Assembly (NCBI GenBank): GCA_028703535.1
Contig: JAQVMQ010000004.1
Coordinates: forward strand, 1-45,938
From: Candidatus Omnitrophota bacterium
GTDB taxonomy: Bacteria > Omnitrophota > Gorgyraeia > Duberdicusellales > 4484-171
Reading direction: 5' to 3'
DNA: 45,938 nt
The position numbers and the translations under genes were made by a program. Of this stretch, positions 24,571-27,118 are shown in pieces (the first letter of the stretch is position 1; each line of letters opens with the position of its first letter). The notes under the pieces were generated by a model that saw only the letters and a list, made by a program, of their open reading frames with translations, searched no databases and was not told the DNA's origin.

Positions 24571-24969
24571 TTAGTGATCACATTCATCTTTTTCAGGATG
24601 ACTGCACTCCGTCTTATCCAACCCATATCCCTTTCCATCCCCCGGCTTACAAAGGCTTTCACCACCTTTTAAATTACCGGCAATAAGCTCATTTAACACA
24701 TCGTCTACTTTACCTGAAATCCCCATAACAGTTTTTATAGCCTGGTCGGCAAACAACATCTGAGCACGCATCCCCATACCACCGGCTATAATTATATTAA
24801 CATCTCTCTCTTTTAAAAATACCGGTAAAAAACCAGGATGATGCCCCGGGTTAGCAATAACTTCTTTTTTTACAATTTTGTTTTCTTCAACATCAATAAT
24901 AGTAAACTCCGGACAACGTCCGAAATGCGCCGAAACCATGTCTCCATCAGTAGAAATCGCCACTTTCAT
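24571..24969 (-). CDS. NifX/NifB-like (dinitrogenase Fe-Mo cofactor/ORP family) protein
   Basis: MKVAISTDGDMVSAHFGRCPEFTIIDVEENKI; GGAGG SD at 24975-24979 favours ATG at 24969 over the ORF-track start at 24981. Confidence 0.88.
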   Translation of the reverse strand: MKVAISTDGDMVSAHFGRCPEFTIIDVEENKIVKKEVIANPGHHPGFLPVFLKERDVNIIIAGGMGMRAQMLFADQAIKTVMGISGKVDDVLNELIAGNLKGGESLCKPGDGKGYGLDKTECSHPEKDECDH

Positions 24970-25000
24970 AACTACCTCCATTTGAAATGTTAATATTCAG

Positions 25001-25391
25001 TTTCACCTTGATTTCAAATGGCACTGAGCGTGTATCGCGAAGTGCCTCTTATACTAAAAATCAATTTACTTTCACCTTGATTTCAAATGGCACTGAGCGT
25101 GTATCGCGAAGTGCCTCTTATACTAAAAATCAATTCACTTTCACCTTGATTTCAAATGGCACTGAGCGTGTGTCGCGAAGTGCCTCTTATACTAAAAATC
25201 AATTTACTTTCACCTTGATTTCAAATGGCACTGAGCGTGTATCGCGAAGTGCCTCTTATACTAAAAATCAATTTACTTTCACCTTGATTTCAAATGGCAC
25301 TGAGCGTGTATCGCGAAGTGCCTTTTATACTAAAAATCAATTCACTTTCACCTTGATTTCAAATGGCACTGAGCGTGTGTCGCGAAGTGCC
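25001..25391. repeat. tandem array 1: six copies of a 69-bp hairpin-containing repeat (last copy truncated)
   Basis: Unit TTTCACCTTGATTTCAAATGGCACTGAGCGTGTRTCGCGAAGTGCCTCTTATACTAAAAATCAATTYAS; copies start at 25001, 25070, 25139, 25208, 25277, 25346. Confidence 0.97.
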
Positions 25392-25408
25392 TTTATTAAC
25401 ATACGTAG

Positions 25409-25433
25409 GGGCGCCGCTTGTCTGCGCCCTTTT
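25409..25433 (+). terminator. hairpin plus T-tract after array 1
   Basis: GGGCGC-CGCTTGTCT-GCGCCC-TTTT; located between the array and the array-2-like right flank. Confidence 0.6.
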
Positions 25434-25520
25434 CTTTATATTTTATGTTGTTCCATTGTCTTTTTATCTTGTTTCGGACAGGAACAAGCACGATCCTTAC
25501 TAAAAGCTAATGACTATAAC

Positions 25521-25853
25521 CTATTTCCCCGATTCAAGCTCTTTTATCCTATTGTGTATCGCATCAAGTTCCTGCTGTACCGCTTGCGCTTCCATCTTTA
25601 GACTTTCGGCTTCCTGTTGAGGAGTAAAATTATAATTTGCCTGTACACCTAAATTAAAATTCGCATTCGAAAAGCCAAAACCTCTCCCCATACCTCCGGC
25701 AAAGCCGCGCCCCATACCCCTGCCAAAACCCCTTCTCAAGAATCTTCTTCCTGTAGGATACTGACCATTATTGAAATTTACGGCACAATATCCTCTCCCG
25801 CCTCCTGTAAATGCACCCTGACCGTTTGGACCTGTCCCATCAAAACCTGGCAT
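25521..25853 (-). CDS. Gly/Arg-rich DUF5320-like protein
   Basis: MPGFDGTGPNGQGAFTGGGRGYC...RGFGRGMGRGFAGGMGRGFGF, C-terminal coiled coil. Confidence 0.8.
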   Translation of the reverse strand: MPGFDGTGPNGQGAFTGGGRGYCAVNFNNGQYPTGRRFLRRGFGRGMGRGFAGGMGRGFGFSNANFNLGVQANYNFTPQQEAESLKMEAQAVQQELDAIHNRIKELESGK

Positions 25854-25885
25854 AATATACCTCCATTTGAAATGTTAATATTCAG

Positions 25886-26276
25886 TTTCACCTTGATTTC
25901 AAATGGCACTGAGCGTGTGTCGCGAAGTGCCTCTTATACTAAAAATCAATTCAGTTTCACCTTGATTTCAAATGGCACTGAGCGTGTGTCGCGAAGTGCC
26001 TCTTATACTAAAAATCAATTTACTTTCACCTTGATTTCAAATGGCACTGAGCGTGTGTCGCGAAGTGCCTCTTATACTAAAAATCAATTTACTTTCACCT
26101 TGATTTCAAATGGCACTGAGCGTGTATCGCGAAGTGCCTCTTATACTAAAAATCAATTCAGTTTCACCTTGATTTCAAATGGCACTGAGCGTGTATCGCG
26201 AAGTGCCTCTTATACTAAAAATCAATTCAGTTTCACCTTGATTTCAAATGGCACTGAGCATGTGTCGCGAAGTGCC
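25886..26276. repeat. tandem array 2: six copies of the same 69-bp repeat
   Basis: Copies start at 25886, 25955, 26024, 26093, 26162, 26231; same left flank (ACCTCCATTTGAAATGTTAATATTCAG) and right flank as array 1. Confidence 0.97.
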
Positions 26277-26347
26277 CTTTTCTTTATATTTTATATTGTT
26301 CCATTGTCTTTTTGTCTTGTTTCAGACCGGAACAAGCACGATCCTTA

Positions 26348-26815
26348 CTATCTTCGGCATTTCTCACAAAGTCCAGTAAACTGAATTAAATGATCATTTA
26401 TGTTAAAATTATATTTTTCAGATAACCCTTTTTCAATTTTTTTCAAAAGCTCGACTTCATCTTCAATAAAATCTGTATAATCAATAATTTTACCGCATTT
26501 CGTACATATCAAATGATGATGATGTTTTTTACCTTCAGGTCCCTCAATCAATTCATACCTAGCCCTACCGTCACCAAAATCAAACTTATGAACCAGCCCC
26601 AGCTCAACAAGCAATTCCAATGTTCTATAAACAGTCGCAAGCCCTGCTCCCGGATAGATCTTATATACATCATTATATATTTCTTCCGCGCTTAAATGCT
26701 TTGAAGTTTTACTTAAAACCTCTAATATCGCCTGACGGGATATTGTAAGTTTATAACCCTGCCCTTTAACTCTTCCGCACCACCATCCAGCGCCTTTTCT
26801 GCAACCGTGCCTCAT
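26348..26815 (-). CDS. Fur-family metalloregulator
   Basis: YKLTISRQAILEVLSKTSKHLSAEEIYNDVYKIYPGAGLATVYRTLELLVELGLVHK, HHHHLICTKCGKIIDY, CEKC. Confidence 0.93.
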   Translation of the reverse strand: MRHGCRKGAGWWCGRVKGQGYKLTISRQAILEVLSKTSKHLSAEEIYNDVYKIYPGAGLATVYRTLELLVELGLVHKFDFGDGRARYELIEGPEGKKHHHHLICTKCGKIIDYTDFIEDEVELLKKIEKGLSEKYNFNINDHLIQFTGLCEKCRR

Positions 26816-26827
26816 ATGCCCTCCTAA

Positions 26828-26850
26828 ATGAGAATGATTATCATTCTCAT
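26828..26850. promoter_or_regulatory. Fur box upstream of the Fur-family gene
   Basis: ATGAGAATGATTATCATTCTCAT: perfect 11-bp arms around one central base, 13 bp from the start codon. Confidence 0.85.
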
Positions 26851-27089: not shown

Positions 27090-27118
27090 ACCAATTCCAT
27101 CCCTGGGATGGAATTGGT
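27090..27118. repeat. perfect inverted repeat, 14-bp arms with 1-nt centre
   Basis: ACCAATTCCATCCC-T-GGGATGGAATTGGT. Confidence 0.9.

Follow-up and report, generated by a model that had tools for sequence, protein, structure and literature searches.

The two hairpin arrays considered here are built from a previously undescribed two-hairpin element that fits none of the families tested (Rfam, CRISPR and REP/RAYT). Our preferred reading, to which we give a probability of roughly 0.58, is that of a dispersed non-autonomous repeat kept as a 5′ leader hairpin at gene starts, each array being a tandem expansion of one copy. In sense order the element comprises H1 (GGCACTTCG...CTCAGTGCC), a mismatched hairpin of about 26-31 nt, followed by H2 (CATTTGAAAT...ATTTCAAATG), an AT-rich stem with a 3′ arm that extends into the Shine-Dalgarno (SD) sequence. 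Tandem repetition is less important than placement: throughout one family, in an order of uncultured Omnitrophota-like bacteria, single copies stand right at the starts of genes, among them tRNA genes, and this placement suggests a transcribed leader structure able to spread.

Two related arrays in the fur region

The window, that is, the whole 45,938-nt stretch of the Candidatus Omnitrophota contig JAQVMQ010000004.1 that was analysed, carries on its minus strand, in this order, fur, array 2, a DUF5320 gene, array 1 and a NifX/NifB-type gene; the functional strand of the arrays is also the minus strand, that of the genes. Upstream of array 2 lies the Fur-family regulator (26815-26348; Pfam PF01475, E 1.4e-33), downstream of it the DUF5320 protein (25853-25521; PF17253, E 1.6e-21) and, downstream of array 1, a NifX/NifB-type dinitrogenase iron-molybdenum cofactor domain protein (24571-24969; PF02579, E 4.8e-23). 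For the last of these the start ATGAAAGTG at 24969 was chosen by SD spacing, the listed open reading frame beginning 12 nt upstream, within the SD region.

The initial annotation had described two arrays of six hairpins each at a strict 69-bp spacing, and this is borne out: array 1 occupies 25001-25396 and array 2 25880-26276 on the minus strand, each with six H1 hairpins and a TRF period of 69, 5.8 copies, 97% matches and 0 indels. The unit hairpin is more stable than nearly all shuffles (z -2.1 to -3.9). The variants are as claimed, with a TGTAT or TGTGT loop and a TTAC, TCAC or TCAG junction, ordered along the arrays. In array 1 copies 4-6 equal copies 1-3 in variant order and copy 1 equals copy 4 over 52 nt; the suggested three-copy unit of 207 bp thus fits, although few variable sites lie behind the fit. 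The two intergenic modules are related, as had been proposed, and their expansion differs between the arrays.

The flanks require a revised description. The shared right flank, which in sense is a 5′ flank, is genuine: its first copy (25429-25502) and its second (26277-26350, from the fur stop codon), both on the minus strand, are identical at 70 of 74 positions (94.6% over 74 nt). It is itself a dispersed repeat, and contig C80 has another copy of it (locus L098; 85% over 60 nt). Conversely, what had been taken as a left flank, ACCTCCATTTGAAATGTTAATATTCAG, is no flank. In sense, the final copy in either array closes with ...CTGAATATTAAC-ATTTCAAAT-GGAGGT, the SD included, and the supposed flank is thus the closing arm of the second hairpin running into the SD. 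In array 1 this terminal complete element lies at 24978-25047 (minus; match to the covariance model R2, E 9.0e-14), with H1 at 25020-25046, the H2 5′ arm at 25011-25019, the closing (3′) arm ATTTCAAAT at 24980-24988 and the SD GGAGG of the NifX/NifB-type gene at 24975-24979; one of two alternative pairings joins the first GG of this SD to the CC that separates H1 from H2. In array 2 the equivalent element lies at 25863-25932 (minus; R2, E 1.3e-13), with H1 at 25905-25931, the H2 5′ arm at 25896-25904, the closing arm ATTTCAAAT at 25865-25873 and the SD GGAGG of the DUF5320 gene at 25860-25864. The statement that each array fills the whole gap from stop codon to SD holds exactly for array 2, where the order is fur stop codon, flank, array and SD, but array 1 has 18 extra nt past the DUF5320 stop and an extra GC-rich hairpin, GGGCGCAGACAAGCGGCGCCC (25409-25429, minus), between flank and array. 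The GGGCGCAGACAAGCGGCGCCC hairpin joined to the AT-rich flank, seen in the window at 25409-25429 and at L098 near 2108-2167, is a third dispersed repeat of the genome.

Two further readings of the arrays were rejected. A CRISPR, already discounted in the initial annotation, is at odds with the absence of variable spacers, the whole 69-bp unit being 97% conserved; the ten nearest genes and the array-overlapping open reading frames contain no cas genes, and encode metal or Fe-S, regulator, methyltransferase or efflux functions or have no match. A coding role is suggested by open plus-strand frames of 204 and 170 aa, the unit being 23 codons, but these have no Pfam match and a related array on contig C42 has a 68-bp unit, which breaks the frame.

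A Fur box, GAGAATGATTATCATTCTC, lies upstream of fur at 26830-26848 (strand not assigned; 0 mismatches, chance expectation 0.01) and is the sole one found in the window. The fur-DUF5320 spacer measures 494 nt in this organism versus about 60-106 nt in relatives with a readable spacer (L275, L276, L279, L282, L283 and L293), where it mostly holds a Fur-box-like site or palindrome; the two-hairpin element was not found in these readable spacers. The nearest named relatives by Fur protein are MAGs labelled Candidatus Omnitrophota and Auribacterota. The short spacers with Fur-box-like palindromes suggest that DUF5320 is normally under direct Fur control. Since in this organism the arrays occupy both the fur-DUF5320 and the DUF5320-NifX-like gaps, the first of which is a short Fur-box spacer in relatives, the fur promoter probably drives the DUF5320 and NifX-like genes, the arrays serving as intercistronic leaders. 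Iron-specific control by the element itself was rejected: relatives have a Fur box and lack the element at the site of array 2, and the element precedes many unrelated genes, which also does away with the idea of a module bound to a Fur/ORP-like cluster.

Anatomy and covariation of the element

The hairpin that had been taken for the whole unit is half of a two-hairpin element. On the sense strand the unit reads TTGATTTTTAGTATAAGAG-[GGCACT TC GCG ... CGC TC AGTGCC]-ATTTGAAATCAAGGTGAAAC..., and the repeat of the arrays consists of H1 plus the 5′ half of H2, with a closed element in the last copy only. As internal copies are devoid of the H2 3′ arm, a single-copy function leaves the repetition unexplained.

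We built one covariance model (R1) from 11 complete elements of the organism's own genome and another (R2) from 47 elements. The seed alignment of the 11 has two stems, with 98.5% of cells paired and 23 double-change cells versus 7.4 in shuffles. In the alignment of the 47 distinct elements, standard pairs fill 99.1% of the pair cells, double changes occur in 15 of the 18 pairs, and there are 160 double-change cells against 39 ± 6 in shuffles (0/500 shuffles reaching the observed value); slid controls are 37-51% paired. The models behind these pairing counts, and behind the placement counts below, were seeded on the same elements, and the sampled genomes are related.

Between the hairpins stands a dinucleotide that matches, as a complement, both the 5′ foot of H1 and the two bases that follow H2, forming the triple GG-CC-GG in 35 and GA-TC-GA in nine of the 47 elements; the second of these pairings, with the opening bases of the gene, is kept in all 47. 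Among tRNA-type elements, 91% have the 8-nt foot of H2 paired at 8/8 positions, versus 12% after swapping arms between amino acids; the H2 5′ arm tracks the first bases of the tRNA. When four examples of an element with its tRNA were folded, three gave H1, H2 and the tRNA as adjacent structures.

The strict three-way identity and the exact contact with an SD or a tRNA 5′ end are what one would look for in a strict regulatory switch, in which ligand, temperature or tRNA supply decides between H1 and the SD or tRNA start as partner of the dinucleotide and so switches translation or tRNA maturation, with the arrays adding gain. We regard such a switch as improbable: the downstream genes, varied proteins and at least nine tRNA species, have no common theme, and the H2 loop has short conserved stretches only, offering no obvious ligand pocket. 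Moreover, folding predicts opposite changes in SD accessibility for the two window genes, with no consistent shift in SD opening, and SD sequestration was rejected on this ground.

Copies in the genome and among relatives

The organism's own genome (1.41 Mb in 90 contigs, a draft metagenome-type assembly) was searched for the unit, and it is indeed a dispersed repeat that also precedes other genes. A DNA search and two pattern searches recovered diverged copies on other contigs, the hairpin-core pattern giving 20 matches versus 0 for its reversed control, and R1 at E < 0.01 gave 37 matches, of which 29 lie beyond the window, spread over 14 further contigs. A third array, on contig C42, has four copies at 68 bp of different sequence. 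A hairpin, TCCCGAGAGCGAAGCGAATCGGGA, is chained to the element via the same connector, GGTRRAACTAAATAAAGG, at four loci (L018, L056, L061 and L036), as if hairpins were strung on one linker.

Among other genomes, R1 had matches in 20 of the 37 that belong to the family and two of 60 outside it; R2 detected it in 17 of 25 sampled genomes of the family, two of five of the sister family in the order and, with weak scores, four of about 354 other genomes of the phylum. One of the weak matches looks genuine: L229, in a different family of the class, shows both stems and is followed directly by a tRNA-like 5′ end. The genus g4 has an array of its own, of four copies at 72 bp before a DUF5320-like gene. 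At the level of DNA there was no close match to the unit in 57 relatives and no exact pattern match in GTDB contigs or viral contigs. No known annotated repeat family matches the unit: Rfam gave nothing at or above gathering score in the window and only tRNAs at six element loci, with no curated RNA family for the element.

The contigs C19, C22, C14, C7 and C11 of genome G003 (L157, L158, L161, L163 and L164) begin or end inside element copies, and element arrays break assemblies in the family. An assembly artefact or sequencing duplication, for which such contig ends and the draft state of the 90-contig assembly might speak, is nonetheless scarcely credible as the source of the window arrays: their copies carry ordered variants, unique genes separate the two arrays within the interior of one contig, and the genome has single copies and a further tandem array at other sites.

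Placement at the starts of tRNA and protein genes

We located elements in the relatives with R2 and scored the feature after each; removal of three doubly counted loci left 109 elements. Downstream DNA could be read for 107 unique elements, and 98 of these adjoin the start of a gene in sense orientation, 60 of them at tRNA 5′ ends and 38 at SDs or start codons. An intact tRNA 5′ end follows directly in 52 of the 109, the final 1-6 nt of the element being the first nt of the tRNA (offset 0 to -5), and an SD with a start codon follows in another 36, the start lying 7-13 nt downstream in 35 and inside the arm in L094. A further 20 comprise eight at interrupted or masked tRNA 5′ ends, two at starts missed by the filter (L096 and L165), two at contig ends and eight without a nearby gene start; a single element (L098) lies antisense at a tRNA 3′ end. 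The tRNAs are of the species Pro, His, Gly, Ala, Ser, Val, Met, Lys and Asp, and the protein genes, named by eye from their N-termini, include clpP, clpC, rpmF, tpiA, dapA, hisI, an EF-G-like GTPase and a DUF5320-like gene.

Several of these loci have further features of their own. In L124, L130, L127, L128, L170 and L134 a broken tRNA 5′ end follows the element, with an intact tRNA, mostly of the same isotype, further downstream; the sequence AATGAGACT recurs at several of these breaks and is probably another mobile element using tRNA 5′ regions. Within about 30 nt after the element, L133 has a CIRCE-like inverted repeat, TAGCACTC-N9-GAGTGCTA, of which L174 has a degenerate form.

Evidence for a proposed action as RNA

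Promoter-like (sigma70-like) sites scoring at least 10/12 occur upstream of H1 in 12 of 46 tRNA-type elements versus 0.9% of Markov-shuffled controls, and sites scoring 11 in six of 46 versus 0.05%. Sites in this position place those elements inside the transcript, and tRNA-type elements that have them are probably transcribed. Mismatches on the sense strand comprise 35 G-U versus 12 A-C, as RNA would give, a count that the RNA model itself favours. Placement, upstream promoters and the excess of G-U over A-C together argue for a role at the RNA level, as far as sequence can speak to it.

These observations also bear on action as DNA, with H1 as an inverted-repeat binding site, the H2 loop as a -10 box and transcription starting beside the gene. 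Some H2 loops do resemble a -10 box, and TTGAAA ... TATAAT-like combinations occur in some H2 stems and loops, but many H2 stems have no -35 match, clear promoters lie upstream of H1, and the positions of H1 covary rather than keep a half-site sequence. A promoter inside H2, which fits some copies only, was rejected, and we hold an operator or promoter of this kind to be very improbable.

Age, spread and the question of a mobiliser

The element is found with Ala-ggc beside Leu-caa in G016, G003 and G007, with Pro-tgg beside Arg-tct in G004, G026 and G033, and with Gly-tcc and Thr-tgt in G030, G029 and G058; its presence at the same tRNA loci in several genera means that some copies are old. 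Others are recent, judging from its presence before tpiA in G003, its absence there from the congeners G033, G026 and G058 and the other family genomes read, and the near-identical copies before several G003 genes. The same within-genus presence and absence and near-identical copies are, in the genome sequences, the mark of dispersal.

Such dispersal, with its empty sites and the antisense copy at a tRNA 3′ end, is also what a purely selfish REP- or MITE-like palindrome would leave, moved as single-stranded DNA by a Y1/HUH transposase, devoid of host function and inserting at GG-containing sites at gene starts, with the target-complementary bases as a guide for target choice. H1 resembles REP hairpins with a mismatched stem, and the genome encodes seven Y1-domain (Y1_Tnp) proteins, two of which, when checked by NCBIfam, best matched the model of the REP-associated tyrosine transposases (RAYTs), below its cut-off. 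Yet no H1 hairpin occurs in the flanks of the six Y1 genes that were read, one of which has a different palindrome. Across the family the element and Y1/RAYT genes are not associated: G004, G015, G029 and G034 have the element and no Y1 gene, and G002, G010, G013 and G021 have Y1 genes and no element; no mobilising enzyme was found. Given the Y1 flanks and the lack of a family-wide association, we do not file the element as a REP. The GG or GA at both ends of the element is like a short target duplication, the same dinucleotide standing at the 5′ foot of H1 and after H2 in 44 of 47 elements, but it is part of both stems, and two bases are insufficient to specify SDs and tRNA starts. Nor would compensatory changes and retention at the same tRNA loci in several genera be expected of a purely selfish sequence, which we therefore deem unlikely.

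The genome has a second palindrome family, CCAATTCCATCCC-GGGATGGAATTGG, which occurs in the window at 27097-27118 and flanks a RAYT-like gene on contig C83 (L042; G000:C83, 997-1242). This palindrome and the C83 gene are likely a genuine REP/RAYT pair of the genome.

Comparison with known repeats

By analogy, the nearest architecture is that of the pneumococcal BOX and the nearest positioning that of the TAACTGA repeats. The BOX elements of Streptococcus pneumoniae, boxA-(boxB)n-boxC, form stem-loops if transcribed, are co-transcribed with genes and are non-autonomous (PMC3049150). The likeness lies in architecture: both are composite intergenic repeats with variable tandem middle modules between fixed ends, and the present arrays number six, six, four and four copies, the last being the single closed one in each. 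However, the lineages are unrelated, no Rfam family matched the element at threshold and, unlike BOX, the element contacts the SD or tRNA start in one fixed orientation, its last stem including the gene's own bases. The TAACTGA direct repeats of Beggiatoaceae lie mostly a few nt from start codons, have no downstream theme and have been proposed to act post-transcriptionally (PMC4679880); tandem direct repeats near start codons of genes with no functional theme are common to both systems, but theirs is a 7-nt repeat in contrast to the structured element of about 70 nt.

The REP/BIME sequences of the GTAG or CGTC superfamily carry an unpaired GTAG or CGTC tag at one hairpin end (PMC3733652). The element resembles REP/RAYT systems (PMC3733652, PMC2817692) in its short imperfect hairpin, its many dispersed copies, its clusters and the RAYT-like genes of the genome, H1 having the size and dispersal of a 20-40 bp imperfect intergenic palindrome. 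It differs in having a second covarying hairpin and strict sense placement at gene starts, and neither tag stands beside H1 in the aligned elements, which also tells against the selfish palindrome considered above. The Correia repeat enclosed elements, or NEMIS, of Neisseria are mobile and gene-adjacent, with hairpins that can be RNase III substrates and set the expression of neighbours (PMC2649163). They likewise are short mobile repeats with hairpins adjoining genes, but have terminal inverted repeats; none, including an outer one of the kind found in MITEs, was seen in the element, which ends with internal stems and makes exact contact with the SD or tRNA start.

A proposed leader element at the starts of genes

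In the reading that we prefer, of a dispersed repeat kept as a leader, the element would be transcribed as the final part of the gene's 5′ leader, with the 3′ arm of H2 reaching into an mRNA's SD or a tRNA's first few nt. The middle dinucleotide (CC or TC) would have two possible partners, the foot of H1 and the opening GG or GA of the gene, allowing the stem to pass from one to the other once a ribosome or the tRNA acceptor stem takes up the gene's bases. The effect may be to fix or protect the mature RNA 5′ end and to insulate it from the upstream transcript, through processing or stability. Beyond the anatomy, covariation and sense placement at gene starts observed here, we infer that the leader function lies in such 5′-end definition, protection or insulation at the RNA level. 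Spread might proceed via a trans-acting copying mechanism or gene conversion, and arrays could grow by unequal recombination or slippage, adding H1 and half of H2 each time as the closed last copy stays at the SD. A more far-reaching proposal, which we put forward only tentatively, is a new class of structured RNA leaders capping both tRNA precursors and mRNAs, with a last stem completed by the gene's bases, a dinucleotide hand-over, spread from gene to gene with the arm re-matched for each target, and arrays as amplified caps.

Dispersed bacterial repeats are usually viewed as loosely placed in intergenic space. The element described here contacts the functional start of tRNAs and mRNAs alike, and its covariation includes the host gene's own bases. 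Whichever reading holds, a covariance model for it now exists, in a host group of uncultured bacteria with little experimental biology. If the element is selfish, its target pairing stays readable in the genome, so that its target choice would be testable; if it is a leader, it would represent one 5′-end element common to two RNA classes that normally mature by different routes.
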